DNA from: Sulfitobacter litoralis
GTDB taxonomy: Bacteria > Pseudomonadota > Alphaproteobacteria > Rhodobacterales > Rhodobacteraceae
Assembly: GCF_900103185.1 (NCBI RefSeq)
Contig: NZ_FNJD01000012.1
Span: forward strand, 1 to 64,000
Direction of reading: 5' to 3'
Length of the DNA stretch: 64,000 bases
A program made the position numbers and the translations under genes. The notes below the pieces were generated by a model. It saw nothing but the letters and a program-made list of their open reading frames with translations, made no database searches and was not told the DNA's origin. Position 1 is the first letter of the stretch. Each line of letters starts with the position of its first letter. This document shows positions 38,471 through 57,381 of this stretch, piece by piece.

Positions 38471-39043
38471 ATGGCAGAGCAGACATTTTCACGACGCGGG
38501 TTGATCCTGACGGCAGGTGCGGCGCTCTTTACGCCCGCCGTGTTGCGCGCGCAGACGCCGACACCTGAAGTCATCGACGTGGTACGCCACAACACAAACG
38601 GGTTCTCCAGCCAGAACTGGCAGGACCACTTTGACACCCTGGGCAAGGCCGCCATTGTCGCCGATACCTCTTCCCGCGCGCTGCATTATTGGGGCGGCGA
38701 TGGTGACACCTACAAAATCTACCCGACGTCAGTCCCGCGCAGCGATGAGCTGACCAAACGTGGCTACACTAGTATCGTGCGCAAACGTGTTGGCCCGGAC
38801 TGGACGCCGACCCCCAGCATGATCGAACGCGATCCGGACCTGAAATACATGCCTCCGGGGCCGGACAATCCGCTTGGGACCCACGCGATGTACCTCAGCT
38901 GGCCTGCCTATTTGATCCACGGTACACATGATACGCGCAAGATCGGGCGGCAAAGCTCTGACGGGTGCATCGGTCTTTACAACCACATGATCGAGGCCCT
39001 GTACCAGATTGCCCCCATCGGGACGCAGGTCCGTATCGTCTGA
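38471..39043 (+). CDS. L,D-transpeptidase (YkuD) family protein with Tat signal
   Basis: A 190-residue exported protein with a twin-arginine signal (FSRRGLILTAG, residues 7-17) and cleavage near LRAQ. The C-terminal YkuD domain has HGTHDTRKIG near 150 and the catalytic cysteine C166 in SSDGCIGLYN. L,D-transpeptidases cross-link peptidoglycan or attach proteins to it. The usual Arg two residues after Cys (GCIR) is Gly here, which may alter activity. AAGGAG-like sequence precedes the ATG. Confidence 0.88.
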   Translation: MAEQTFSRRGLILTAGAALFTPAVLRAQTPTPEVIDVVRHNTNGFSSQNWQDHFDTLGKAAIVADTSSRALHYWGGDGDTYKIYPTSVPRSDELTKRGYTSIVRKRVGPDWTPTPSMIERDPDLKYMPPGPDNPLGTHAMYLSWPAYLIHGTHDTRKIGRQSSDGCIGLYNHMIEALYQIAPIGTQVRIV

Positions 39044-41811: not shown

Positions 41812-42009
41812 ATGATGAACTTTATCAAGAACTTCAAAAATGACGAATCCGGCGCCGTGACTGTTGACTGGGTTGTTTTGACCGCCGCCGTTGTTGGCCT
41901 GGCCGTCGCAGCCTACACGTCGATCGAAAGCGGTGCGGCCGACCTGACAGCGGACACCAAGACCTACATGAGCACACAAGCCCCCGGTTATACGGCACCG
42001 TCTGAATAA
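41812..42009 (+). CDS. flp: Flp-type type IVb pilin, major candidate
   Basis: A 65-residue prepilin. A short basic leader ends at G14, then AVTVDWVVLTAAVVGLAVAAY forms the hydrophobic assembly helix; CpaA-type peptidase would cut after G14. Position +5 is Asp and +6 Trp where most Flp pilins have Glu-Tyr. A hydrophilic tail of about 30 residues follows. It begins the Tad locus. A strong ribosome site and a hairpin after the gene point to high expression. Confidence 0.92.
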   Translation: MMNFIKNFKNDESGAVTVDWVVLTAAVVGLAVAAYTSIESGAADLTADTKTYMSTQAPGYTAPSE

Positions 42010-42095: not shown

Positions 42096-42269
42096 ATGCT
42101 TTCGAAGCTCATCACATTCTGTAAAAGCCCAAGCGGCGCAGTCACGGTTGACTGGGTTGTTCTATGTGCCGCCGTCGTGTCGCTGGCCGTATTGATGGTC
42201 GTTACTATGACCACGGGAACCGTCGAACTGGCTGATAAGCTGATGACCCAGACGCCGGGCGACATCTAA
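42096..42269 (+). CDS. Second Flp-like pilin or pseudopilin
   Basis: A 57-residue paralogue of flp. The leader also ends at G14 and the core AVTVDWVV is identical, but the protein is shorter and carries two cysteines (C9, C24). A minor pilin or initiation subunit is plausible; a simple duplicate is the alternative. AAGG precedes the ATG. Confidence 0.82.
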   Translation: MLSKLITFCKSPSGAVTVDWVVLCAAVVSLAVLMVVTMTTGTVELADKLMTQTPGDI

Positions 42270-42397
42270 CCCAAGTCTCTATAATGACGCAGCTTGGTCG
42301 CGCATTGTTCATAGTCTGAACACAATCACCGCCTATCCATCGGCATACGTTTTACGCCGTGTCCCGGACCGGCACCCACTCAAGAGAGGTAAGTAAC

Positions 42398-43261
42398 ATG
42401 CGGATGGTTTTTGGACTGGTCTTGCTCGCCGGTATCGCCTTGGCAGGTGGTGCTGTGTATCTGGCAAAGGGCCGTATCGGTGAATATCAAATGGCGCACC
42501 AGCAGGCACAAGAAGCTCTGGCGCAAATCGTGCCAACCGTGGGCGTCTATGTCGCCACCGGACCGCTGAAATACGGGCAGCGTCTGACCCGCGAGGATGT
42601 GCGTCAGGTAAGCTGGCCTGAAAACGCGATTCCCGAAGGCTCCTTTATCGAAGAAGCCGCGCTATTCCCTGAAAATAACGATGACCTGCGGGTCGTGCTG
42701 CGCGCCATGGAAAAAGACGAAGCCATCATGGCCGTGAAAGTAACCGAGCCCGGTGCGGACGCCGGTCTCACCTCTAAGCTGGCACGCGGCAGCCGCGCGT
42801 TTGCCATCCGCGTCGATGTATCCAGTGGCGTGTCGGGCTTCCTGCGCCCTGGTGACCGCGTCGATGTTTATTGGACGGGCCGGATCAACCGGGGCGGCAA
42901 CGACCGTGGCGACACGGGTGACGTCACCAAGCTGATCGAGGCAGGCGTCAAGATTATCGCCATCGACCAAAGCTCCAATGGCCAACGTAGTGAAGCCGCG
43001 ATCGCCAATACCGTGACTGTGGCAGTTCAGCCCTACCAGGTTGCAGCATTGGCACAGGCGCAATCCACCGGCAATCTGTCCCTGTCGCTTGTCGGGGCAG
43101 AGGATGACACGGTTGCCGCAGAGATCGAAGTCGACCAACGTAGGCTTCTCGGTATCGCCAAAGAAACTGTAAAGGTCGAGACAACGACACAGAAAGTCTG
43201 CACGATCCGGACACGCCGTGGTGCCGAAGTGCTCGAAATTCCGATCCCCTGCACCAACTGA
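42398..43261 (+). CDS. cpaB: Flp pilus assembly protein CpaB/RcpC
   Basis: A 287-residue periplasmic protein with one N-terminal membrane helix (1-22), a SAF domain (VYVATGPLKYGQRLTREDV near 48-110) and the RcpC/CpaB domain (GFLRPGDRVDVYW near 143). It supports the secretin. GAGAGG lies before the ATG. About 130 bases after the second pilin. Confidence 0.92.
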   Translation: MRMVFGLVLLAGIALAGGAVYLAKGRIGEYQMAHQQAQEALAQIVPTVGVYVATGPLKYGQRLTREDVRQVSWPENAIPEGSFIEEAALFPENNDDLRVVLRAMEKDEAIMAVKVTEPGADAGLTSKLARGSRAFAIRVDVSSGVSGFLRPGDRVDVYWTGRINRGGNDRGDTGDVTKLIEAGVKIIAIDQSSNGQRSEAAIANTVTVAVQPYQVAALAQAQSTGNLSLSLVGAEDDTVAAEIEVDQRRLLGIAKETVKVETTTQKVCTIRTRRGAEVLEIPIPCTN

Positions 43262-43321: not shown

Positions 43322-43472
43322 TTTGGCATTGCGCGGGCATGTTGCCACGAATCCACAGGTAACTGCGGCCTGACGTCATTGATTCTTGCAAAAAAGCGAA
43401 AAGAACCGCAGAGTGTCGCAAACGGCGGGCGCAAAGACCCTATTTTGAGGCGTGATCACAAAGGCAGGTCAC

Positions 43473-44912
43473 ATGAAAATTGATAAATTTATCAAAGCAG
43501 TCCTATTGGGACTGACGATTGGCGCGATGCCGATTGCATTGACCGCCCCGCTTGACGCTCAGGCAAACACGCTGCGCGTGGTCAAAAAAGGCACCAACCG
43601 CGTGTTGGAAGTCCCGATGAACCGCGCCGTGGTGGTTGAAAGCGACATTCCCTTTGCCGAGCTGAGCATTGCCAACCCCAGTATCGCAGATATTTCGTCG
43701 CTCTCGGATCGCACGATTTATGTTCTGGGCAAATCCCCCGGACTTACAACGCTGACGCTGCTTGATGCCGCGGGGCAACTGATCACGAACGTTGATGTGC
43801 GCGTCGCAGCGGATGTCTCCGAGTTCAAGGAACGCCTGCGCCAGATCCTGCCCGGTGAAAAGATCGAAGTCCGCACGGCGAACGACGGTATCGTGCTGTC
43901 GGGCATCGTGTCCTCGACCCAACGCTTGCAGCGGGCCCTTGATCTGGCCGAACGCTACGCCCCTGAACGCGTGTCCAACCTGATGAGCGTCGGTGGCATC
44001 CAGCAGGTGATGTTGAAAGTCCGTTTTGCCGAGATGAGCCGATCCGTCTCTAAGTCCCTAAGCGCATCACTGGCGCTAAACGGCCTTGTGGGCAGCGATC
44101 TGGCATTGAATGGCGGCACCAATTCGACGAACACATCCGGCGCAATCGCCAATTCGCTTGGCGGGTCGACCCCGGCATCGAATGGCAACGCAGGGGCCGT
44201 TTTGTTTGGCTTCAACGCCGGATCGACGCAGGTCGGTCTGCTGCTTGAGGCGCTGGAGCAGAAAGGCGCGGTGCGGTTTCTGGCTGAGCCGAACCTCGTG
44301 GCGCTGTCGGGGCAAGAAGCGACCTTCCTCGCGGGGGGCGAATATCCTGTTCCCGTGGCGCAAACCGGCGACCAGATTTCGGTTCAGTATAAACCTTTCG
44401 GCGTAGAGATGAGCTTTATTCCCCGCGTCGTGGACAAAGACCTGATCAACCTCGAACTCAAAGCGGCCGTATCGGCGATTGATGCCAGCAACAGCGTGTC
44501 CTTGGGCAACGGATTTGATATTTCCGCATTTACCCGCCGCGAGACATCGACCACGGTTGAAATGCGCGACGGCGAAAGCTTTGCGATCGCTGGTCTGCTG
44601 ACCGATGATTTCACCGACACTTCCACACAATTGCCCTGGATCGGCGACGTGCCTGTATTGGGCGCGTTGTTCCGCAGCGCAAACTACCAGCGCAGCCAAA
44701 CCGAGCTGGTGATTATTATTACCGCACACCTTGTGACCCCGACCCGTGGCGAGGCCTTGGCCCTGCCGACCGACCGGATCAAGCCGCCCACTGAAAGCGA
44801 ATTGTTCCTGTCTGGGCGTACGTCCAAAGGCAGCACAGCCCCCACCAAAGGGGCCGCTGGCGAAGTTGCCAAGCAGGACTTTAGCGGGTCGTATGGCTAT
44901 GTATTGGATTGA
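43473..44912 (+). CDS. cpaC: Tad secretin CpaC/RcpA
   Basis: A 479-residue outer-membrane secretin through which the Flp pilus passes. It has a signal peptide (cleavage near DAQAN, residue 31), an N-terminal pilus-assembly domain (LEVPMNRAVVVESDIPFAEL region), a BON-like segment, then the secretin core with FLAEPNLVALSGQEATFLAGGE split motif (LAEPNLVALSG) and VPVLGALF. It is close to cpaB and overlaps no neighbour. GGCAGG precedes the start; the first ATG at 43452 is less likely. Confidence 0.94.
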   Translation: MKIDKFIKAVLLGLTIGAMPIALTAPLDAQANTLRVVKKGTNRVLEVPMNRAVVVESDIPFAELSIANPSIADISSLSDRTIYVLGKSPGLTTLTLLDAAGQLITNVDVRVAADVSEFKERLRQILPGEKIEVRTANDGIVLSGIVSSTQRLQRALDLAERYAPERVSNLMSVGGIQQVMLKVRFAEMSRSVSKSLSASLALNGLVGSDLALNGGTNSTNTSGAIANSLGGSTPASNGNAGAVLFGFNAGSTQVGLLLEALEQKGAVRFLAEPNLVALSGQEATFLAGGEYPVPVAQTGDQISVQYKPFGVEMSFIPRVVDKDLINLELKAAVSAIDASNSVSLGNGFDISAFTRRETSTTVEMRDGESFAIAGLLTDDFTDTSTQLPWIGDVPVLGALFRSANYQRSQTELVIIITAHLVTPTRGEALALPTDRIKPPTESELFLSGRTSKGSTAPTKGAAGEVAKQDFSGSYGYVLD

Positions 44913-44916
44913 TCAG

Positions 44917-45603
44917 ATGACTTCAGCGATCGCTTCGACAGGCAAAATCACCGGGTTGTGCGTCGCCTTGGCCATGACTGTTACAGGCTGTGTCAGCAGC
45001 CCTGATCCGGTCTTTACCCAGTTCCACCGCGAAGCAGGGTCGCTGACCGATTTGGGCACCTTTGGAAACGCTACCCTGAACAACCGCTTGGTGATGACCG
45101 GTGAGCGCCAGTATACATTCGATCTGGCCAACCGCTTTGCCGGCGAAGTCGAATCGACCGTCACCTTTGCTTTCAACTCTTCACAGTTGGACGGGGTCGC
45201 GCAGTCGGTTCTGCGACGTCAGGCCGGATGGATCCGCCAGTTCCCCGAAGTCCGCTTTCGCGTCTATGGCCATACAGATGCCGTCGGATCGAACAGCTAT
45301 AACAAAACACTGGGCCTGCGCCGCGCGCAATCCGTTGTGGCCTTCTTGTCCACACAAGGTATCAGCCGCAGCCGCCTAGAAGCCGTTGTTTCCTTTGGCG
45401 AAACACAGCCCCTGATCGTGACCCAAGGTCGCGCACGTGCAAACCGCCGGACTGTGACCGAAGTTAGCGGTTTTGTCGGGCGTCATCCGACTGTGCTGGA
45501 CGGGAAATATGCCCAGATTATCTATCGCGACTATGTCGCCAGCGCCGTGCCGCCGACCCTACTGACAGGCGGTGCCGCACCCACCGGTGCTGTGGGAGAA
45601 TAA
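44917..45603 (+). CDS. OmpA-domain lipoprotein of the Tad locus
   Basis: A 228-residue lipoprotein (lipobox VTGC, C25) with a C-terminal OmpA/MotB peptidoglycan-binding domain: VYGHTDAVGSNSYN and LGLRRAQSVVAFL. It probably tethers the secretin to the wall and stands where other Tad loci have CpaD/TadD-like lipoproteins. The start is uncertain (44893, 44899 or 44917); I take the one after the cpaC stop. A strong terminator follows. Confidence 0.88.
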   Translation: MTSAIASTGKITGLCVALAMTVTGCVSSPDPVFTQFHREAGSLTDLGTFGNATLNNRLVMTGERQYTFDLANRFAGEVESTVTFAFNSSQLDGVAQSVLRRQAGWIRQFPEVRFRVYGHTDAVGSNSYNKTLGLRRAQSVVAFLSTQGISRSRLEAVVSFGETQPLIVTQGRARANRRTVTEVSGFVGRHPTVLDGKYAQIIYRDYVASAVPPTLLTGGAAPTGAVGE

Positions 45604-45873: not shown

Positions 45874-47112
45874 ATGAGCAGCCATATACCACAGATTGAC
45901 GCGCCACAGATCGTTGCGTGCACCGTCAGCCGGGATGTGCAGAACTTTGACCTGCTGATCGAAGATATGGAATCGGCTTTGGGCGAAGCCTGGGGCGACC
46001 TGGGCTTTTCTGAAAGTCTTGCATTTTTCAGCCAACCCGAGGCGGCGACGCTTGAACTTATCGCGCTGGCGCTCGATTCCGAAGATGAAGACAACCTGCC
46101 AATGATGACCGAGATCATCGCGCAGGCAAAAGCACGTCATATCAAAGTGATCTTGATCGCCGAAGACATGTCCCCCGCCTCGCTCCATTCGTTGTTGCGT
46201 CAGGGCGCGAATGAATTTGTCCCCTACCCTCTGCCCGAAGGTGAACTGGCCTCGACCATAATCCGTCTGCGCGCCTCACCCGAACCAATAGTGGCACCCG
46301 CAGAGACAGGCCCCAAGCTGAAACCCGGCACCCAGAAGGATGGTGCTGTGATCGTGGTGCACGGACTGGCCGGCGGCACCGGTGCCACCAGCCTTGCGGT
46401 GAATTTGGCATGGGAACTGGCGACCTCTGACAAAAAGAACCCGCCCAAAGTGTGCTTGCTTGATCTTGACCTGCAGTTCGGGGCCGTGGCGACCTATCTG
46501 GACCTGCCCCGTCGCGAAGTGGTCTATGATATGCTGATCGAGACCGATGCGATGGACGAGGAAAGCTTTGGCCAGGCTCTGCTGACCTACGAAGAGAAGC
46601 TCCAGGTTCTGACCGCCCCTGCCGACATGCTGCCACTTGATTTGATCACCTCGGAAGATGTGACACGGATCCTGGATATGGCGCGCAATCAGTTCGATTA
46701 TGTGGTCGTCGACATGCCTTCGACACTGGTGCAATGGACCGAAACCGTGCTGACCAACGCACATGTCTATTTTGCCATGCTCGAACTGGATATGCGCTGC
46801 GCCCAAAATGCCCTGCGTTTCAAACGCGCCCTGCAATCCGAAGATCTTCCTATCGAAAAGCTGCGCTATGTCATGAACCGCGCGCCGAAGTTCACCGATC
46901 TGAACGGCAAAGCGCGGGTCAAACGGATGGCAGAGAGCCTCGGGATTTCGATCGATGTGCAACTGCCCGATGGCGGCAAACAGGTAACCCAAGCCAACGA
47001 CCACGGTCTGCCGCTGGCCAACACCGCCGCGAAAAACCCGCTGCGTCGCGAGATCGCCAAGCTCGCTAGTTCGATCCACAACCTCAAGGCTGACGAAGCC
47101 AAAGCCGCCTGA
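45874..47112 (+). CDS. cpaE: Tad localisation ATPase-like protein CpaE/TadZ
   Basis: A 412-residue protein with an atypical receiver-like N-terminus (about 10-130) and a MinD/ParA-like domain from about 150. The P-loop reads HGLAGGTGATSLA, lacking the usual Lys of KGGxGKT, as in TadZ-type proteins. It marks the pole for pilus assembly. DLDLQFGAVATYLDL and VDMPSTLVQW are the Walker A' and B-like blocks. An acidic start region precedes. Confidence 0.93.
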   Translation: MSSHIPQIDAPQIVACTVSRDVQNFDLLIEDMESALGEAWGDLGFSESLAFFSQPEAATLELIALALDSEDEDNLPMMTEIIAQAKARHIKVILIAEDMSPASLHSLLRQGANEFVPYPLPEGELASTIIRLRASPEPIVAPAETGPKLKPGTQKDGAVIVVHGLAGGTGATSLAVNLAWELATSDKKNPPKVCLLDLDLQFGAVATYLDLPRREVVYDMLIETDAMDEESFGQALLTYEEKLQVLTAPADMLPLDLITSEDVTRILDMARNQFDYVVVDMPSTLVQWTETVLTNAHVYFAMLELDMRCAQNALRFKRALQSEDLPIEKLRYVMNRAPKFTDLNGKARVKRMAESLGISIDVQLPDGGKQVTQANDHGLPLANTAAKNPLRREIAKLASSIHNLKADEAKAA

Positions 47113-47151: not shown

Positions 47152-48597
<1,446 letters not shown>

Positions 48598-48609
48598 GGA
48601 TTATCAATC

Positions 48610-49572
48610 ATGAGCGCAGAACCCATTATTTATGGCCTGATCTTTATCGGTGTCCTCGTGCTGGTCGAAGGGCTGTACCTGGTCGCCTTCGGTAAATCCA
48701 TCAGCCTCAACAGCAAGGTCAACCGCCGGCTGGAAATGTTGGAAAAAGGAGCCGGCCGCGAAGAGGTTCTGGACAAGCTGCGCAAGGAAATGCAGCAGCA
48801 TATGGATAACAAATCCATTCCCATCTATTCGATGCTCGCCGCGAAAGCGCAGAAAGCCGCGATTGCCTTTGCGCCGAAACAGCTGATCATGATTATGGCC
48901 GGGCTGTCCGTTGTCGCCTTTCTGGGCCTGACCATCGGGACCAGCACCGAAGTTCCCGTGCGTATCCTGATCTCTGTGGGGATCGGGGTCGGGGCGGTCT
49001 ATTTCTGGATCTCGTCCAAAGCTAAAAAACGCATGGACCTGATCGAAGAACAATTGCCTGATGCGGTCGAACTGATGGTGCGGTCGCTGCGTGTCGGCCA
49101 CCCGTTCACAAGTGCCATCTCTATTGTCTCCAAGGAAATCCAGGACCCGCTTGCGTCGGAGTTCGGGGTGATCGCGGATGAAACCGCCTATGGCCGCGAC
49201 ATTGGAGAGGCGCTCAAGGATATGGCCGAACGACTTGATATGCAGGATTTGCGCTTCCTTGCGGTTGCGGTGACCATCCAACAGCAATCCGGTGGTAACC
49301 TCGCCGAAATTCTTGCGGGGCTGGCCAAGGTGATCCGCGCCCGTTTCCGCCTGTTCCGCCGCGTGCGTGCCATCACAGCCGAAGCGAAATGGTCGGGCAA
49401 GTTCCTGTCGGCCTTCCCCGTTGTTGCGCTGATCGTGATCAAACTTGGTGACCCGCATTACTATGACGAAGTCATGACCCACCCGCTGTTCATCCCCGGC
49501 TGCATTGCCGTGGTCGTGTTCCTGTCGCTTAACCTCATCGTCATGCGCAAGCTGACCGATATCAAAGTCTAA
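48610..49572 (+). CDS. tadB: Tad inner-membrane platform protein TadB
   Basis: A 320-residue type II secretion F-domain membrane protein with helices near 5-25, 95-135 and at the C-terminus (265-310), and a cytoplasmic domain with LPDAVELMVRSLRVGHPF. It pairs with TadC as the platform that the ATPase turns. Twelve bases after cpaF. Confidence 0.94.
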   Translation: MSAEPIIYGLIFIGVLVLVEGLYLVAFGKSISLNSKVNRRLEMLEKGAGREEVLDKLRKEMQQHMDNKSIPIYSMLAAKAQKAAIAFAPKQLIMIMAGLSVVAFLGLTIGTSTEVPVRILISVGIGVGAVYFWISSKAKKRMDLIEEQLPDAVELMVRSLRVGHPFTSAISIVSKEIQDPLASEFGVIADETAYGRDIGEALKDMAERLDMQDLRFLAVAVTIQQQSGGNLAEILAGLAKVIRARFRLFRRVRAITAEAKWSGKFLSAFPVVALIVIKLGDPHYYDEVMTHPLFIPGCIAVVVFLSLNLIVMRKLTDIKV

Positions 49573-49584
49573 GGGGGCTTCATT

Positions 49585-50541
49585 GTGAATTTCCTGACCA
49601 CTCTCGACACCACACTTGGTCCCATCGGCTGGATCGCCATTCTAGGTGCACTTGGCCTGACCATGGTCGGTGCCACGCTTATCATGATCCTGCGCCAGCC
49701 CGAGGATCCGCTGGCCAAGCTGAAACGCAGCCAATCCGAATCCTTCGACGGAGGCAAACAGCAGCGCTTGCGCCAGTCAGACCGCAACGAACAGCTGCAA
49801 AAATTCGCCAAGTTCCTTGAACCCGAAAACATGGAAGAGCTCAGTGCCAAGGCACTTCTTCTCCGGCAGGCCGGCTATGGCTCGCGCGATGCGGTGCGGT
49901 TTTTCCACTTTGCGCAAATGGCTCTTGGTATTGCAGGTTTGGTAATCGGCACCGTTTACGTCAACTTTCTTGGCGGTGGCGAAGGCCTGAGCACCAATAA
50001 GATGATGCTCTATACCGTCGGCCCCGGTGCGATCGGGTATTTCCTGCCCCGCTATTGGGTGACCCGACGCGTCGAGGAACGCAAAGAAGAAATCACCCGT
50101 GGTTTCCCCGATGCGCTGGATATGATGCTGGTTTGCGTCGAGGCAGGACAATCGCTGGACCAATGCATCGTCCGTGTCGCTGCCGAATTGCGCGCCTCTT
50201 ATCCTGCTTTGGCTGAAGAATTCGAAATCGTCGCCCAAGAGATGAAGGCCGGCAAGGACAAGGTCAGCGTATTGAACGCCATGGGCGAACGCTGCGGCGT
50301 GCAAGACGTATCGTCGTTTGTCACGGTGCTGGTGCAATCGGCGGCCTTCGGGACATCCATCGCCGACGCCCTGCGGGTCTATGCCGACGAGATGCGCGAC
50401 AAACGTGTTATGCGCGCCGAAGAGGCCGCAAACAAGTTGCCAACCAAGATGACACTTGCCACAATGATGCTGACCGTTCCACCGCTGCTGATCATTCTGG
50501 TCGCACCCTCGGTGATGAACATTACCAAACTAGGTCAGTAA
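49585..50541 (+). CDS. tadC: Tad inner-membrane platform protein TadC
   Basis: A 318-residue F-domain paralogue of TadB. The conserved block FPDALDMMLVCVEAGQSLDQ and the C-terminal helices (VPPLLIILVAPS) are clear. It starts with GTG at 49585, behind AAGGGGG. Twelve bases after tadB. Confidence 0.94.
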   Translation: MNFLTTLDTTLGPIGWIAILGALGLTMVGATLIMILRQPEDPLAKLKRSQSESFDGGKQQRLRQSDRNEQLQKFAKFLEPENMEELSAKALLLRQAGYGSRDAVRFFHFAQMALGIAGLVIGTVYVNFLGGGEGLSTNKMMLYTVGPGAIGYFLPRYWVTRRVEERKEEITRGFPDALDMMLVCVEAGQSLDQCIVRVAAELRASYPALAEEFEIVAQEMKAGKDKVSVLNAMGERCGVQDVSSFVTVLVQSAAFGTSIADALRVYADEMRDKRVMRAEEAANKLPTKMTLATMMLTVPPLLIILVAPSVMNITKLGQ

Positions 50542-50549
50542 GGCCCCGC

Positions 50550-51152
50550 ATGTTCCACAGCTTCAAGCGCGCGTACCCCGCTAAGCTCGCGCTTTGTATG
50601 ACCCTGATCGCCGGATTGGCCGCTTGCTCTGCAGGCGGTCTTTCCGCGTTGGGGGGCAAACGCACCACATCTGACAGCCCCTTTGCCCCCGGCGTAAACA
50701 CCCGCAAAGACGCCGAAGACGGGGTAGAGGTCGCCCACCGTTTGATGCACGCCGGGGAATACGAACTCGCCATCCGCGCCTTTAACCGTGCCGCGTTGGC
50801 TTCTGAACTCAACGCCGAAATCCTGTCGGGTCTGGGCAGCGCCAATCTGGGACTGGGGCGTTTGGGCCAGGCCGAAAGCCTGCTGCGCGATGCCGTCAAA
50901 AAGGATGAAACCCACCCCGAGGTCTGGAATAATCTTGGCGTTGTGCTGATGGAAAGCGGCAAACTCGCCGAAGCCCAACTGACCTTCCGCAAGGCCTATG
51001 CGCTCGACAATGGCGAAAGTGACGCAATCCGTGACAATTTACGCTTAGCACTCGCAAAATCGGAAAATTCTGTTACGATCCCAGATCAAGAAGACAGTTA
51101 TAAATTGGTGCGGCGCGGCTCGGGGGACTATCTGGTTCGGCCAGCATCATGA
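50550..51152 (+). CDS. tadD: TPR lipoprotein TadD
   Basis: A 200-residue lipoprotein (lipobox LAAC, C26) with three TPR units from about 65 to 165 (HAGEYELAIRAFNRAAL, GRLGQAESLLRDAV, GKLAEAQLTFRKAY). TadD acts as pilotin or assembly factor for the secretin. Eight bases after tadC. Confidence 0.9.
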   Translation: MFHSFKRAYPAKLALCMTLIAGLAACSAGGLSALGGKRTTSDSPFAPGVNTRKDAEDGVEVAHRLMHAGEYELAIRAFNRAALASELNAEILSGLGSANLGLGRLGQAESLLRDAVKKDETHPEVWNNLGVVLMESGKLAEAQLTFRKAYALDNGESDAIRDNLRLALAKSENSVTIPDQEDSYKLVRRGSGDYLVRPAS

Positions 51153-51180: not shown

Positions 51181-52035
51181 ATGCGCCACCCTATCCTATC
51201 GGCCGTCTGCATCGCAGGCGTCGTCGCACTAGCAGGCTGCGGCAAAAAATCCGGCGAGGACACCGTGACTCGCGCGTTCCAAGACGTAAATGTCGTGGAT
51301 GAAAGCAACCTGAATGATGTGATGTTGACTGTCGCGGACCCGAACGAGGCCGTGAGCTACTTCACCCGCACCGCACAGGAAAAGCCCGATCGCATCGACA
51401 TACAGCGCAGCCTTGGCAAGTCGCTGATCCGCGCCAAGCGCAACCAGGAAGCAGCCGTTGTTTGGGGCAAGGTCGCGGGCGCAAAAGATGCCACCGCCGA
51501 TGACAAGATCGATTACGCCGATGCGCTGATCCGTGCAGGCGATTGGGCCAAGGCCGAAAAGACACTGGATTCTGTCCCGCCAACCCATGAAACCTATAAT
51601 CGCTACCGGCTCGAGGCGATCGTCGCCGACAGCAAGCAGGAATGGGACAAGGCCGACAGCTTTTATGAAATCGCCATCGGACTGACCACCAAACCCGGTT
51701 CGGTCATGAACAACTGGGGCTATTCCAAGCTCACTCGCGGCGATTATCAGGCGGCAGAACGTCTGTTTGGCGAAGCCGTCAAACAGGATCCGACCCTTTT
51801 TACCGCCAAGAACAACCTGATCCTCGCCCGTGGCGCGCAGCGCGAGTACAGCCTGCCGCCGATTGAGATGGACCAGACCGAACGTGCGCAGTTGCTGCAT
51901 ACGCTTGCTTTGTCCGCAATCAAAAAGGGTGATGTTGAAACGGGCAAAGGCTTGCTGCGCGACGCCATCAGCACCCACCCGCAACACTTCGAAGCCGCTG
52001 TCCGGTCCCTGCGCGCACTCGAAAACGCAGCCTAG
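51181..52035 (+). CDS. Second TPR lipoprotein of the Tad locus
   Basis: A 284-residue lipoprotein (lipobox LAGC, C20) with at least four TPR-like units (GDWAKAEKTLDSV, EWDKADSFYEIAI, GDYQAAERLFGEAV). Related to TadD and co-transcribed with it. Two TPR lipoproteins in tandem are known from alphaproteobacterial Tad loci; the division of labour is not established. Confidence 0.88.
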   Translation: MRHPILSAVCIAGVVALAGCGKKSGEDTVTRAFQDVNVVDESNLNDVMLTVADPNEAVSYFTRTAQEKPDRIDIQRSLGKSLIRAKRNQEAAVVWGKVAGAKDATADDKIDYADALIRAGDWAKAEKTLDSVPPTHETYNRYRLEAIVADSKQEWDKADSFYEIAIGLTTKPGSVMNNWGYSKLTRGDYQAAERLFGEAVKQDPTLFTAKNNLILARGAQREYSLPPIEMDQTERAQLLHTLALSAIKKGDVETGKGLLRDAISTHPQHFEAAVRSLRALENAA

Positions 52036-52040
52036 CCCCG

Positions 52041-52535
52041 GTGGAGATCACCAGCTATGCCGCGCTTTGGTTTTTGCCCTTCGCGCTGCCGCTTTGCGCC
52101 TATACGATCTATACCGATCTCGCCTTTATGCGGATTACCAACGTCACGGTGATCGCGCTGGCGGCCGTGTTTGTCATCATCGGCCCCATCGTCCTACCGT
52201 TTGACAGCTATCTTTGGCACCTGCTGGCGATGGTTGCGGCCCTCGTTGTGGGCATCTTTATGAACGCAGGTGGGCTGATGGGTGCAGGCGATGCGAAATT
52301 CATTGCTGCGGCCACCCCGTTCTTCGCGCTCGGGGATCTGCAGTTTCTGATGGCGCTTTTCATGACCACGCTGATCGCGGCCTATATCATTCATCGCGCT
52401 GCCAAATATTCACCCCTACGCAAGCTCGCGCCGCAGTGGGTCAGCTGGCACGAAGCCAAGAAATTCCCCATGGGTCTCGCGCTTGGCACCGTGCTAGGCG
52501 CATATTTAATGCTCGGTGCCTACTTCGGGGCCTGA
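52041..52535 (+). CDS. cpaA: Type IV prepilin peptidase CpaA/TadV
   Basis: A 164-residue membrane aspartyl protease (A24) that cuts the Flp leader. The two catalytic aspartates are D26 (YTIYTDL) and D84 in GAGDAK. About five membrane helices. It starts with GTG at 52041, five bases after the TPR gene. No N-methyltransferase domain, as usual for TadV. Confidence 0.93.
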   Translation: MEITSYAALWFLPFALPLCAYTIYTDLAFMRITNVTVIALAAVFVIIGPIVLPFDSYLWHLLAMVAALVVGIFMNAGGLMGAGDAKFIAAATPFFALGDLQFLMALFMTTLIAAYIIHRAAKYSPLRKLAPQWVSWHEAKKFPMGLALGTVLGAYLMLGAYFGA

Positions 52536-52597: not shown

Positions 52598-53905
52598 GTG
52601 AATATGCAAAAGAGCGCCGTCATGGCCCCTCCTCCGCCACGCACCATCCAAGAGATGAAGCTGCCCGTGGTGATGATGCGCGACATCATGATCAAGACGA
52701 TGTTTCGCAAGAACGTCACTATGGTCAGCGAGATGGCCAAGGCCATATGCCTGCCTTTGCAGGTCACGCAGGAATTGGTGGACCTGTCGCGCGAACAACG
52801 TCTTCTCGAAGCGACGGGCACGCTCAACGCGAATAGCGGCAATGAAATGGGCTATCAGCTGACCGATCTGGGGAAGAACCGCGCGCTGGATGCATTGGCG
52901 CAATCAGAATATTTCGGTCCGATGCCAGTGCCGCTTGAGGTGTACCGCGAACAGGTCAAACGCCAGTCGATACGCAACATGCAGATCACCCGCGCCCGCC
53001 TCGAAGCCGCGATGGGCCATCTGGTGCTTCCTCCGGAATTGATTGGCAATCTGGGCCCGGCTGTTACGGCAGGCCGATCCATCCTGATGTACGGCCCTCC
53101 CGGCAACGGCAAGTCCAGTATTTCAAACGGTATCCGCGATGCGCTTGGCGACAAGATCTACGTCCCGCGGGCGATCGAATATGCCGGACAGGTGATCACC
53201 GTCTACGACCCAATCGTCCACTCCGCTGCGATCGAGGAAGAACAAGACCCGACATCGTTGCGCCGCGTGACCCGCTTTGACACCCGCTATGTCAAATGCG
53301 AACGCCCCACCGTGATCACTGGCGGCGAGCTGACGCTTGATATGCTCGATCTGGTCTATAATCCCACCGCACGCACCTATCAGGCACCGCTGCAGCTGAA
53401 ATCCACGGGCGGCATCTTTATCGTCGACGACCTTGGCCGCCAGTCCGAACCACCGCAGGCACTGGTCAACCGCTGGATCGTGCCGCTGGAAGAAAACAAA
53501 GACATCCTGGCCCTGCAATCCGGCGAGAAATTCGAAGTGCCCTTTGATACGCTGGTTGTGTTTTCGACCAACTTTCACCCCAATGAAATCTTTGACCAAG
53601 CCGCCCTGCGCCGGATCTTTTTCAAGATCAAGATCGATGGCCCCAATCAGGAAATCTTTCTCAAGATTTTTGCCATGGTCGCCAAAAAGCGGAACATCAA
53701 GCTCGACGAGGCGTCACTGATCCACCTGCTAAAAACCAAATACCCCACCATCGACAACACCTTCGCCAACTATCAACCGATTTTCCTGATTGACCAGATG
53801 ATCGCGATTTGCGACTTCGAAGGCATCCCCCACCAGATGCGCCCCGATCTAGTTGACCGCGCATGGGCCAATATGTTCGTCGTGGATGAAACCATCGTAA
53901 GGTAA
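52598..53905 (+). CDS. Uncharacterised AAA+ ATPase at the end of the Tad locus
   Basis: A 435-residue protein with an N-terminal winged-helix-like region (about 25-150, with MGYQLTDLGKNRALDAL) and an AAA core: Walker A YGPPGNGKSS near 166, Walker B GIFIVDDLG near 274, sensor 1 VVFSTNFHP near 320. No membrane segment. Start uncertain between GTG 52598 and ATG 52604 or 52622. It is 62 bases after cpaA on the same strand and probably in the unit. Its role is unknown; it is not one of the named Tad proteins. Confidence 0.85.
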   Translation: MNMQKSAVMAPPPPRTIQEMKLPVVMMRDIMIKTMFRKNVTMVSEMAKAICLPLQVTQELVDLSREQRLLEATGTLNANSGNEMGYQLTDLGKNRALDALAQSEYFGPMPVPLEVYREQVKRQSIRNMQITRARLEAAMGHLVLPPELIGNLGPAVTAGRSILMYGPPGNGKSSISNGIRDALGDKIYVPRAIEYAGQVITVYDPIVHSAAIEEEQDPTSLRRVTRFDTRYVKCERPTVITGGELTLDMLDLVYNPTARTYQAPLQLKSTGGIFIVDDLGRQSEPPQALVNRWIVPLEENKDILALQSGEKFEVPFDTLVVFSTNFHPNEIFDQAALRRIFFKIKIDGPNQEIFLKIFAMVAKKRNIKLDEASLIHLLKTKYPTIDNTFANYQPIFLIDQMIAICDFEGIPHQMRPDLVDRAWANMFVVDETIVR

Positions 53906-53935: not shown

Positions 53936-53982
53936 CTTCATTTTGCCCGATAAACTCCGGGGGTGCGGGGGCTGGCCCCCGC
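53936..53982. repeat. GC-rich palindromic intergenic repeat, copy C
   Basis: GCGGGGGC-TG-GCCCCCGC at 53965-53982; on the minus strand it continues into CCCCCGGAGTTTA and GGGCAAAATGAAG, matching copy A near 22.2 kb in the same order. It lies between the AAA ATPase and the helicase gene. Confidence 0.65.
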
Positions 53983-54007
53983 GGGCAAACACCCTATCTT
54001 GCACCCC

Positions 54008-56452
54008 ATGCAAACCCTGCCCCCCAAATTCACTGACTGGTTCGCCACCAAAGGCTGGACCATTCACCCGCACCAGCAGGATATGCTGGACCGCGCCGAC
54101 GCGCCCGCGTTGCTGCTGATCGCCCCCACGGGCGGCGGCAAGACGCTGTCAGGCTTTTTGCCCACGTTGGTTGATTTAGCAGAGGGCGAGCATGACGGGA
54201 TGCACACGCTTTATATCTCACCGCTCAAGGCGCTGGCGGCGGATATCAAACGCAATCTCACCACCCCTGTGACCGAGATGGGGCTTCCCATCCGGATCGA
54301 GGACCGCACCGGCGACACCTCGCAGACCCGCAAACGGCGGCAACGCGCGGATCCGCCTCACATCTTGCTGACCACCCCCGAAAGCCTCGCGCTTCTGACC
54401 TCCTACGAGGACGCGCCCCGCATGTTCAAAGGGCTCAAACGCGTGGTGATCGACGAGATCCACGCGCTCGCCGACAGCAAACGCGGCGACCAGCTGATGC
54501 TGGCGCTGGCACGGCTGCAACGCTTATGTCCGGGCCTGAAACGGGTGGGTCTATCGGCCACGGTCGAAGACCCTGCGGCCATCGCCCACTTTATGGCACG
54601 CCACCCCGATCCCTGCCCGATCCTGATGGCCGACCCCGGACCGCCGCCTGATATCCAAATGCTGCACACAGACGCAGCCCCGCCGTGGTCCGGCAACGGT
54701 GCCGCCTATGCGATCCCAGCGGTGCTCGAACAGGTACGCCAGCATAAAACCACCCTGATCTTCCACAACACCCGCGCCCAAGCCGAGATTTTCTTTCACA
54801 ACCTCTGGCTCGCCAACGAAGACAGCCTGCCCATTGGTATCCACCACGGCTCTCTTGACCGTCAGCAACGCGAACGGGTCGAAGCCACGATGGTGCGCGG
54901 CGACCTGCGGGCCATTGTCTGCACCGGCAGCCTCGATCTTGGGATCGACTGGGGCGACGTCGATCTTGTGATCCAGATCGGTGCCCCGAAGAATGTGAAA
55001 CGTCTGGTGCAACGCATCGGGCGCGCCAACCACCGCTACAATGCTCCATCCAAGGCGCTGCTGGTGCCCGCGAACCGGTTCGAAGTCGTTGAATGCGTGG
55101 CCGCGCTCGACGCCGTATTGGCCGGAGATCTTGACGGCGACCCGCGCGGACCCGGCCCACGAGACGTCTTGTGCCAGCATATCCTGATCACCGCCTGCGC
55201 CGGTCCCTTCGACGCCGATGCGCTATATGCCGAGGTGACCTCGGCCGGTGCCTACGCGGGCCTTACCCGCGCCGCGTTCGACGCCTGCCTCGATTTCTGC
55301 GCCACGGGTGGCTACGCGCTGCGGGCCTATGACAGGTGGCAACGGCTGCTATATACGGACGGTAAATGGCACCTGCGCGACCCCCGCAGCAGCCAGCGCA
55401 TCCGCATGAACATCGGCACCATCCAAGATACCGATACGCTCAAGGTACGGATGAAACGCAATCGCGGCGGCAAACCACTGGGCGAGATCGAAGAGGGCTT
55501 TGCAGCCACGCTGAGCGCGGGCGACACATTTCTAATTGGCGGGCAGATTGTCAAATACGAAGGCCTGCGAGAAATGACCGTCGAGGTCAGCCGCTCTGCC
55601 GCCAAGAAACCACGCGTTGCCACCTTCATGGGCACGAAATTCGCCACCTCCACCCAGCTTTCGGCCCGGGTGCAACGCATGTTCACCCAAGACAGCTGGC
55701 CCGACCTGCCGCGTCACACTGCCGAATGGCTTGCGCTACAGCGCGACGTCAGCCAGCTCCCGCAACCGGGGCGCTTGCTGATCGAAAGCTTCCCCCACGA
55801 TGGCCGCGCCCAAACGGTGATCTACGGCTTTGCCGGTCGCAACGCACAACAGACCCTCGGCTTGCTGCTGACCAAACGGATGGAAGAGCTTGGCCTCAAC
55901 CCCTTGGGTTTTGTAGCCACTGACTATGCCACGCTGATCTGGGGCCTTGATCCCGTCGATGATCCGACCCCGCTGGTTGATGCCGCGGCGCTTCACGACG
56001 GGCTTGACCTTTGGCTGGCAGGCAACGCCGTGATGAAACGCACCTTTCGCGCTGCCGCCACGATCGCTGGGTTGATTGAACGCAACACTCCACAGGCGCA
56101 CAAGTCGGGCCGTCAGGCGACCTTCAGCTCGGATATTCTCTACGATACACTGCTGAAATACGAACCAGATCACCTGCTTCTCGACATCACCCGCGAAGAG
56201 GCGCTACGCGGCTTGGTGGACTTTGGCCGCATCGAAGAGATGCTGCACCGGATCAAAGGCCGTATCGATCACCGCACCCTCGACCGTGTCAGCCCGCTGT
56301 CAGCGCCACTGTTTCTGGAAATGGGACGTGTGCCGGTCAAGGGGCAAGCTGAAGAGCGACTGCTGGCCGAGGAATCCGCCCAGCTGATGGAGGCCTCCGG
56401 TCTGGCACAGATCACCCCTGCACCTGACAATATCCCTCTCAAGCGACGCTAA
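54008..56452 (+). CDS. Ligase-associated DEXH-box DNA helicase (Lhr-type)
   Basis: An 814-residue superfamily 2 helicase of the Lhr kind that accompanies an ATP-dependent ligase, an exonuclease and PdeM in a DNA-damage response module. Walker A APTGGGKTLSG (39-49), DEIH in VVIDEIHALADSKRG (near 147), motif VI QRIGRANHRYN, then a winged helix and the Lhr core domain. No ligase or exonuclease gene is next to it here. The start is ATG at 54008. Confidence 0.93.
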   Translation: MQTLPPKFTDWFATKGWTIHPHQQDMLDRADAPALLLIAPTGGGKTLSGFLPTLVDLAEGEHDGMHTLYISPLKALAADIKRNLTTPVTEMGLPIRIEDRTGDTSQTRKRRQRADPPHILLTTPESLALLTSYEDAPRMFKGLKRVVIDEIHALADSKRGDQLMLALARLQRLCPGLKRVGLSATVEDPAAIAHFMARHPDPCPILMADPGPPPDIQMLHTDAAPPWSGNGAAYAIPAVLEQVRQHKTTLIFHNTRAQAEIFFHNLWLANEDSLPIGIHHGSLDRQQRERVEATMVRGDLRAIVCTGSLDLGIDWGDVDLVIQIGAPKNVKRLVQRIGRANHRYNAPSKALLVPANRFEVVECVAALDAVLAGDLDGDPRGPGPRDVLCQHILITACAGPFDADALYAEVTSAGAYAGLTRAAFDACLDFCATGGYALRAYDRWQRLLYTDGKWHLRDPRSSQRIRMNIGTIQDTDTLKVRMKRNRGGKPLGEIEEGFAATLSAGDTFLIGGQIVKYEGLREMTVEVSRSAAKKPRVATFMGTKFATSTQLSARVQRMFTQDSWPDLPRHTAEWLALQRDVSQLPQPGRLLIESFPHDGRAQTVIYGFAGRNAQQTLGLLLTKRMEELGLNPLGFVATDYATLIWGLDPVDDPTPLVDAAALHDGLDLWLAGNAVMKRTFRAAATIAGLIERNTPQAHKSGRQATFSSDILYDTLLKYEPDHLLLDITREEALRGLVDFGRIEEMLHRIKGRIDHRTLDRVSPLSAPLFLEMGRVPVKGQAEERLLAEESAQLMEASGLAQITPAPDNIPLKRR

Positions 56453-56474
56453 ACCCGGCAACCGTCCGGCATAT

Positions 56475-56640
56475 GAGTATTTTTAAAAGGGTGAATTAAC
56501 CTTGGATAAAGGTATCTCTGGCAAACATACCTCGCGGTACAGGCTGGAGAGCCGATGACCGTAAAGGGTGAAGATGCCCCCGACCCGCTGCCTCTAGGCG
56601 TGTCGAGGGTGTCTTCCGCTTCACCCTTTTACAAATACTC
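56475..56640. repeat. 21-bp inverted repeat flanking a 124-base spacer, before pdeM
   Basis: Left arm 56475-56495 (GAGTATTT...AAAAGGGTGAA) and right arm 56620-56640 are complementary with one mismatch in 21. A third partial copy, AAAGGGTGAAG at 56563-56573, can also pair with the right arm (56619-56629), giving two competing folds. The spacer holds no gene. Confidence 0.7.
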
Positions 56641-56715
56641 CTGCGCCCCTGCGTCGCACCAAAACTTCGGCCCGCGCCCCTTGCGCCTGCAGGTAAACTT
56701 GGTGATGAACGCATC

Positions 56716-57381
56716 ATGAACACCGGGTATTCTTTTGACATTTGCGGCGCGCGGCTCACCGCGCTTGGGTCTGGCGCACTCTGGTGGGCCGATCATGGAT
56801 TGCTCTGTGTCTCTGATTTGCATCTGGGCAAGGCAGAACGGGTCGCGCGGCGCGGCGGGTCTGCGCTGCCGCCATACGAGACAACCGATACGCTGATCCG
56901 CCTTGCAGCAGAGCTTGATCGTTTACCGGTGCGCGTCGTGATGTGTTTGGGCGACAGTTTCGACGATCTGCAGGCGGCCCATGCGTTGCCCGAAGCAGCG
57001 CGGCTGACGTTGACCCAGCTTCAAGCAGGGCGGCAGTGGTTGTGGATCGAGGGCAACCATGATCCCGGACCTGTCGCATTGGGCGGAGAACATCTGGCCG
57101 AGGTCACCATCGGCCCCCTGCGGTTTCGCCATATTGCGCAGCCGGATACGCAGGCCGAAGTTTCGGGGCATTACCACCCCAAGGCACGGCTGCGCCTGCG
57201 TGGGCGGGCGGTGACGCGACCGGCGTTCCTGTATGACGACCAGCGGCTGATCATGCCTGCCTTTGGTACCTATACCGGCGGGCTGTTCAGCGACGCGCCG
57301 GTGCTACAAGCATTGATGGGTCCACAGGCCTGCGCCATACTGACCGGACCGCAGCCCACCGCGATCCCAATGCCGCGCTAG
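56716..57381 (+). CDS. pdeM: Ligase-associated endonuclease PdeM
   Basis: A 221-residue calcineurin-fold metallophosphoesterase. Metal ligands: D34 and H36 in VSDLHLGKAER, the GDSFDD and GNHDPG blocks (near 78 and 115) and GHYHPK near 152. PdeM is the endonuclease partner of the Lhr-type helicase; here the two genes are 263 bases apart with the inverted repeat between them. Confidence 0.92.
   Translation: MNTGYSFDICGARLTALGSGALWWADHGLLCVSDLHLGKAERVARRGGSALPPYETTDTLIRLAAELDRLPVRVVMCLGDSFDDLQAAHALPEAARLTLTQLQAGRQWLWIEGNHDPGPVALGGEHLAEVTIGPLRFRHIAQPDTQAEVSGHYHPKARLRLRGRAVTRPAFLYDDQRLIMPAFGTYTGGLFSDAPVLQALMGPQACAILTGPQPTAIPMPR

Follow-up and report, generated by a model that had tools for sequence, protein, structure and literature searches.

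Tad pili mediate surface attachment in many bacteria. Two ATPases are known from these systems: CpaF/TadA, a VirB11/PilT-type motor (Pfam T2SSE), and CpaE/TadZ, a MinD/ParA-like protein. Recent papers on the Tad mechanism, in the portions available, treat CpaF as a single motor for both extension and retraction.

A further ATPase is on record in Vibrio parahaemolyticus, where VP2426, encoded between TadV and RcpC, bears the printed description 'Predicted ATPase with chaperone activity' and, like the tad genes, has a negative value in a qseC-mutant table (PMC7859628, available portion). VP2426 occupies a CpaA/TadV–ATPase–CpaB/RcpC position, an arrangement that we also observed on a Photobacterium plasmid and in genomes outside the class to which the DNA studied here belongs. 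Its homology to the ATPase described below is judged from this position rather than from sequence, and in the material available we found no experiment behind its name. SEED extends this annotation with 'associated with Flp pilus assembly'.

We analyzed a 64,000-nucleotide stretch of Sulfitobacter litoralis DNA (the window) in which a Tad locus is directly followed by a gene for a Tad-associated AAA+ type ATPase. A preliminary description of the window had put this gene forward as its best candidate for an undescribed component. That holds for experimental work, as no experimental study of the ATPase was found among the matches listed in a literature search that left subscription papers mostly outside its coverage; it does not hold for naming, as VP2426 had already been printed as a predicted ATPase (PMC7859628). 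No such ATPase is named in the available portions of PMC8383342 and PMC6668835.

We consider it highly probable that the role of this ATPase is tied to Tad, and as the best explanation of the data we lean slightly towards an AAA+ remodeller that serves a subset of Tad (type IVc) pili as their dedicated third ATPase. If this is true, pili with the extra ATPase may differ in assembly or control, and the systems concerned would be those of most sampled Rhodobacteraceae genera and of parts of several other families. That the window protein scores above no Pfam or NCBIfam cut-off is part of why the finding matters.

The Tad locus and its ATPase gene

The ATPase gene occupies positions 52598–53905 of the window, on the forward strand, as one open frame of 435 residues running from a GTG start to a TAA stop. 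A gap of 62 bases separates it from the stop (52535) of the preceding frame, which encodes the prepilin peptidase CpaA (52041–52535; Type IV leader peptidase, Pfam Peptidase_A24). The preliminary description had reported a 435-residue frame at this distance from a prepilin peptidase gene; the frame is intact, and both its coordinates and its neighbour were borne out. The best 80 tblastn relatives all span 434–435 of the 435 residues at 79–89% identity, and relatives at 30–39% identity retain the invariant motifs described below, so the frame represents a real gene. Between positions 51900 and 54200 we found one promoter-like and three terminator-like sites, which is about the number in shuffled sequence and hence uninformative.

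The rest of the Tad locus lies upstream on the same strand. Two small proteins (41812–42009 and 42096–42269) carry the motif SGAVTVDWVV and, from this motif and their position, are probably Flp-pilin-like; in both we take the Asp to occupy the place of the Glu that usually follows the expected cleavage site. They are followed by CpaB/RcpC (42359–43261; Pfam RcpC, with TIGR03177 above its cut-off), the secretin CpaC (43452–44912), and an OmpA-family protein (44746–45603; Pfam OmpA) whose listed start overlaps cpaC and whose true start is probably downstream. CpaE/TadZ (45874–47112) is supported by CpaE/MinD-type matches under their cut-offs, and the motor ATPase CpaF/TadA (47152–48597) by Pfam T2SSE and a TadA-type NCBIfam match just under its cut-off. 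TadB (48610–49572) and TadC (49585–50541) have no NCBIfam match. Models of our own match CpaC to the annotated type II/III secretion protein of Rhizobium etli plasmid p42e, and TadB and TadC to the first and second type II secretion F proteins of that plasmid. Between TadC and CpaA are two TPR proteins (TPR1, 50550–51152; TPR2, 51181–52035), with TPR-type matches under cut-off, that are probably TadD-like.

Downstream of the ATPase (53963–57381) are a ligase-associated DEXH helicase (TIGR04121) and then a small protein, which we take to be a phosphoesterase. The window also encodes an L,D-transpeptidase (38471–39043) about 3 kb before the pilin-like frames; in the Tad type of Rhizobium plasmids and on a Salipiger plasmid (L130, L131, L132), an L,D-transpeptidase gene lies between CpaE and CpaF.

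We examined the ATPase core in an alignment of 17 diverse rows, with identity to the window protein as low as 31%. The Walker A motif GPPGNGKSS (residues 166–174, positions 53093–53119) has invariant G166, G169, G171, and K172, and the Walker B motif FIVDDLGRQ (residues 274–282, 53417–53443) has invariant D277, D278, G280, R281, and Q282. In pattern form, GxxGxGK[ST] and DDxGRQ are present in 17 of 17 rows and GPxGxGK in 10. Two further motifs are invariant, GGEL (residues 242–245, 53321–53332; 17 of 17 rows) and NRWI (residues 291–294, 53468–53479). A candidate sensor 1, STN (residues 323–325, 53564–53572), has an invariant N325, and both residues of a putative arginine finger, R338 and R339 (53609–53614), are invariant. 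The three motifs listed in the preliminary description, GPPGNGKSS, VDDLG, and STNF, were accordingly located at residues 166–174, within 274–282, and at 323–326. Its Walker A and Walker B motifs make the protein a P-loop ATPase, probably of the AAA+ type; a candidate sensor-1 polar residue and a putative arginine finger are also present, with roles assigned by analogy.

Two AlphaFold2 models, computed from the window protein with 57 or 41 of its 80 close relatives, have mean pLDDT values of 56.7 and 45.0, with much of the ATPase core below 50. The N-terminal domain alone was usable, and the core is therefore presented as a set of motifs, with no claim about its fold. The three best rows by E-value in a Foldseek search with the whole model were an uncharacterised Pyrococcus protein at a TM-score <0.3, and these rows were set aside. 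Sequence searches of solved structures gave matches headed by Cdc48-, spastin-, and Sec18-type proteins and confined to the Walker A region (among the best 60 of 164 and the best 60 of 250).

The winged-helix domain and the proposed function

The winged-helix-like N-terminus noted in the preliminary description is backed by the predicted model. Residues 23–104 (52664–52909) are predicted to form a winged-helix domain, with pLDDT blocks of 81–93 except for a value of 66 at residues 71–80. Residues 25–104 of the model superpose on MarR with a Z of 11.8 and an rmsd of 1.8 over 78 residues, and the nearest proteins overall are the MarR and DtxR DNA-binding regulators. This domain sets the ATPase apart from CpaF and CpaE, which are encoded at the same locus and neither of whose family models (VirB11/PilT-type T2SSE and MinD/ParA-like) it matches.

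Winged helices frequently bind proteins. In the stretch that we take as the recognition helix (residues 53–67), the 17 rows have just 1–3 Lys and Arg and 1–4 Asp and Glu among 15 residues, and the domain of the window protein has a pI of 5.1. A protein partner is therefore likelier than DNA, and we infer that the winged helix binds such a partner.

We propose that the ATPase would form a cytoplasmic AAA+ ring, probably of six subunits, and, by hydrolysing ATP, would remodel a part of the Tad system that faces the cytoplasm or assist in its assembly, with the winged helix serving to bind a protein partner. On whether the ATPase remodels a Tad component, our judgement is evenly balanced. The first candidate substrates would be CpaA, which adjoins the ATPase in loci of the main Rhodobacteraceae type and of the cpaA–ATPase–cpaB type, and TadC, which adjoins it in those of the Rhizobium-plasmid type. 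A more specific version, which we hold tentatively, is that a whole Tad subset may possess a third, dedicated AAA+ motor acting through a winged-helix adaptor domain to remodel either the inner-membrane platform or the prepilin peptidase, which would add a control step absent from Tad systems that do not have the gene. Catalysis and ring assembly, like the partner and an effect on pili, belong to this inference.

The winged helix could instead bind DNA, with the core acting as a switch for tad transcription or coupling the pilus to the cell cycle or to a surface contact signal. Such a regulator would fit the structural proximity to MarR and DtxR, and one genome of the distant genus f24 g51 has a copy beside a GAF-HD signalling protein. 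It is at odds with the scarcity of basic residues in the putative recognition helix, the acidic domain, and the frequency of protein binding among winged helices. The window protein moreover has neither a Sigma54_activat match nor a GAFTGA motif, which rejects it as a sigma-54 activator; Sigma54_activat matched four of the 17 members weakly (best E 0.0016), and profile similarity to these activators was likewise weak (E 6e-4). We regard a regulatory role as unlikely.

The preliminary description had suggested that this third ATPase of the locus could be a MoxR-like remodeller or a sensor tying pilus assembly to the cell cycle. Its link to Tad is upheld by the distribution described next, its membership in MoxR is not (see below), and we found nothing in support of a cell-cycle connection.

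Occurrence and inheritance with Tad loci

We compared the ATPase locus of the window with its closest relatives, the best 80 (79–89% identity) of at least 554 among at least 595 candidate stretches, with the window itself (L001) left out. All 80 bear Rhodobacterales-type names, and carriers of the gene include Phaeobacter and Ruegeria. CpaE, CpaF, TadB, TadC, TPR2, and CpaA are all found in the fetched stretch of 75 of the 80 loci. The ATPase starts less than 400 bases past CpaA in 72 loci and after a gap of 1.6–2.4 kb in six. One locus (L023) is cut by a contig end. In another (L075), the 10 kb around the ATPase contain no Tad gene, and the genome encodes a Tad CpaF elsewhere at 83% identity.

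Across these 80 loci, the ATPase has a median identity of 81.5% to its counterpart in the window, close to that of CpaF (82.6%) and above those of the other Tad proteins (48.7–76.1%). High conservation of the ATPase says little by itself, because the adjoining DNA-repair helicase, a non-Tad protein, has a similar median identity (79.5%). In 55 of the 77 close loci able to show it, this helicase lies no more than 1.8 kb past the ATPase, which implies that a DNA-repair cassette lies beside the Tad locus in many Rhodobacterales.

We identified the ATPase in 162 and the Tad marker CpaB in 170 of 199 Rhodobacteraceae genomes, sampled at about one per genus. Both are present in 160 genomes, the ATPase alone in 2, CpaB alone in 10, and neither in 27 (Fisher p 7e-23, kinship uncorrected), so that the two agree in 187 of 199; these are counts of joint presence, with linkage viewed for the exceptions and a handful of further genomes rather than for all 160. 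Co-occurrence across Rhodobacterales had been suggested in the preliminary description as a check on a pilus role, and within this family the outcome favors a role in Tad.

The exceptions are of several kinds. One ATPase-only genome (G352) retains an apparent Tad remnant, with TPR2 and CpaA beside the ATPase (L133, 6525–11308) and no CpaB or CpaF match genome-wide; in the other (G375), which also has no CpaB or CpaF match, the ATPase precedes the usual downstream helicase. In seven of the ten CpaB-only genomes (G264, G290, G296, G307, G320, G360, and G415), model scores mark the Tad locus as divergent, and two (G283 and G336) have a window-type Tad locus with no ATPase in place. The last (G431), cut by a contig, was not scored among window-type loci either as a loss or as a presence. 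G232 has its ATPase and its Tad locus on separate contigs, and the stretch read around the ATPase contains no Tad gene. G252 has two copies (L147 and L148) on different contigs, each with no Tad gene in the surrounding 20 kb, and CpaB elsewhere in the genome.

In a phylum-wide sample of 249 genomes, we identified the ATPase in 27, CpaB in 86 (counted at the curated cut-off; 124 at a looser one), and both in 25, leaving 61 of 86 Tad-marked genomes without the ATPase. Outside Rhodobacteraceae, both are present in 12 genomes, the ATPase alone in 2, CpaB alone in 61, and neither in 160 (p 2e-5), a statistic that rests on 14 ATPase genomes from six genera with kinship uncorrected. The ATPase lies directly before cpaB in a Tad locus in 10 of these 14 genomes, representing five of the six genera (five of the ten genomes belong to one genus), and CpaA was detected immediately upstream in 7 of the 10. 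One match (L101) is truncated, and its full frame was taken from L116.

The remaining four genomes outside the family all represent a single distant genus (f24 g51). Of these, two that consist of one contig (L110 and L113) have tandem ATPase copies far from CpaB, and two drafts have an ATPase copy and no match to CpaB or CpaF. In one of the former (G009, locus L110), the tandem copies are flanked by the GAF-HD signalling protein on one side and by a TatD DNase on the other. The tandem copies of this genus may have acquired another role. G017 and G212 have the ATPase with no detected Tad.

We identified 75 plasmid records that match the ATPase, mainly from Rhizobium (57) and Sinorhizobium (7), and all seven plasmids that we opened have a Tad locus. 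The ATPase follows tadC on R. etli p42e and on plasmids of Rhizobium sp. NXC14 and S. fredii NGR234, and it is tail-to-tail with tadC on the Salipiger plasmid. On plasmids of Burkholderia (B. pyrrocinia), Paraburkholderia (P. terrae), and Photobacterium, the order is prepilin peptidase–ATPase–cpaB. The preliminary description had named homologues lying mostly away from Tad loci as the pattern that would speak against a pilus role; this is not what the examined genomes and plasmids showed.

Apart from the exceptions described above, the ATPase gene lies within or next to Tad loci in several lineages and several gene orders, and it is absent from a part of Tad systems, including those of G283 and G336. 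Since most Tad-marked genomes of the phylum sample lack the gene, we class it as accessory and not as part of the Tad core. In many bacteria from sea and soil it travels with Tad genes, so its product probably serves the pilus machine as an additional working part or as a controller.

Several observations bear on its inheritance. First, a second ATPase copy accompanies a second Tad locus, inside it or within about 5 kb, in three genomes (G310, G334, and G385). Second, the second-type ATPases of the Salipiger plasmid and G385 are 46–48% identical to two Rhizobiaceae plasmid copies and 37–41% identical to two main-type copies, and CpaF at second-type loci is 63–66% identical to that of Rhizobiaceae plasmid loci versus 48–51% for the main type. 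Third, a maximum-likelihood tree of the ATPase (midpoint-rooted, with a long-branch warning elsewhere in the tree) groups the second-type copies, including those of G310 and G334, with support of 97/92 and apart from the main type. Finally, ATPase and CpaF distances have a correlation of 0.93 over 27 loci, a value reached by 0 of 5000 permutations (28 loci were supplied and L145, which lacks one of the four proteins, was dropped). Tad proteins correlate with one another at 0.95–0.98, slightly above the 0.93–0.94 between Tad proteins and the ATPase, in a set without a non-Tad control. These comparisons indicate that the ATPase is inherited with the Tad locus rather than with the host; the two G252 copies with no Tad gene nearby count against this.

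The ATPase could also have a general cellular role and simply ride along with Tad loci. Copies that lack a neighbouring Tad gene (f24, G252, G232, and L075) or any detected Tad (G017, G212, and G375) would be expected of such a passenger, as would the frequent helicase neighbor of similar conservation in the Rhodobacteraceae loci. A passenger is harder to reconcile with the co-occurrence of ATPase and CpaB and with a position in or beside Tad loci that recurs across families in several distinct gene orders. The strongest evidence is the second Tad type, which has its own ATPase copy with an ancestry matching that of its CpaF, and we find the passenger reading quite improbable. A dedicated accessory ATPase of Tad systems is the reading that we prefer.

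Placement among ATPase families

A Pfam search with the window protein gave nine families at E 1 or better, none above its own cut-off, and no NCBIfam family cut-off was reached. The general AAA_16 model matches 16 of the 17 diverse members at E <=0.01 (best 1.2e-7).

The preliminary description's label 'MoxR-like' gained no support from these searches as a statement of membership. The MoxR family model AAA_3 is absent both from the nine Pfam families of the window protein and from the 19 families that the 17 members match at E 0.01. We compared profiles with sets of 20 IetA-like proteins, 19 MoxR proteins, and 20 sigma-54 activators; the single-pair E-values, fit for ranking only, place IetA-like proteins first (9.8e-11), then MoxR (1.3e-5), and then sigma-54 activators (6.2e-4). 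By eye, the motifs after Walker A appear to follow an order like that of MoxR-type ATPases and of similar clades that have a hairpin before sensor 1.

The anti-phage ATPase IetA, which has a protease partner gene, is the nearest curated profile. It is the top NCBIfam match of the window protein (E 3e-7; E 2e-8 with PADLOC) and is matched by 13 of the 17 aligned members at E 0.001, with the Walker A and sensor-1/arginine regions aligning. Membership is rejected by a score of 30 bits against the NF042959 cut-off of 510, with the best stretch limited to residues 315–369. The IetA-like comparison set lies wholly under that cut-off, which was reached in 0 of 299 genomes. Across residues 245–312 the profile alignment is broken by large gaps, and the conserved GGEL/DDxGRQ/NRWI stretch lands in gapped or badly aligned columns. 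The genomic context of the window protein also differs.

A phage-defence ATPase of the IetA type sited in a pilus locus would be plausible, since pili can serve as phage receptors, and it draws on the best cross-family match (E 1e-10 against the below-cut-off proteins), but given the low and local score, the gapped alignment, identified neighbours that are Tad genes, and searches of phage records and viral contigs in which no relative was found, we consider it very improbable. The genome from which the window comes does encode an IetA-like ATPase at a separate site (G000:C26:70131-71024), which scores 188 bits against the cut-off of 510.
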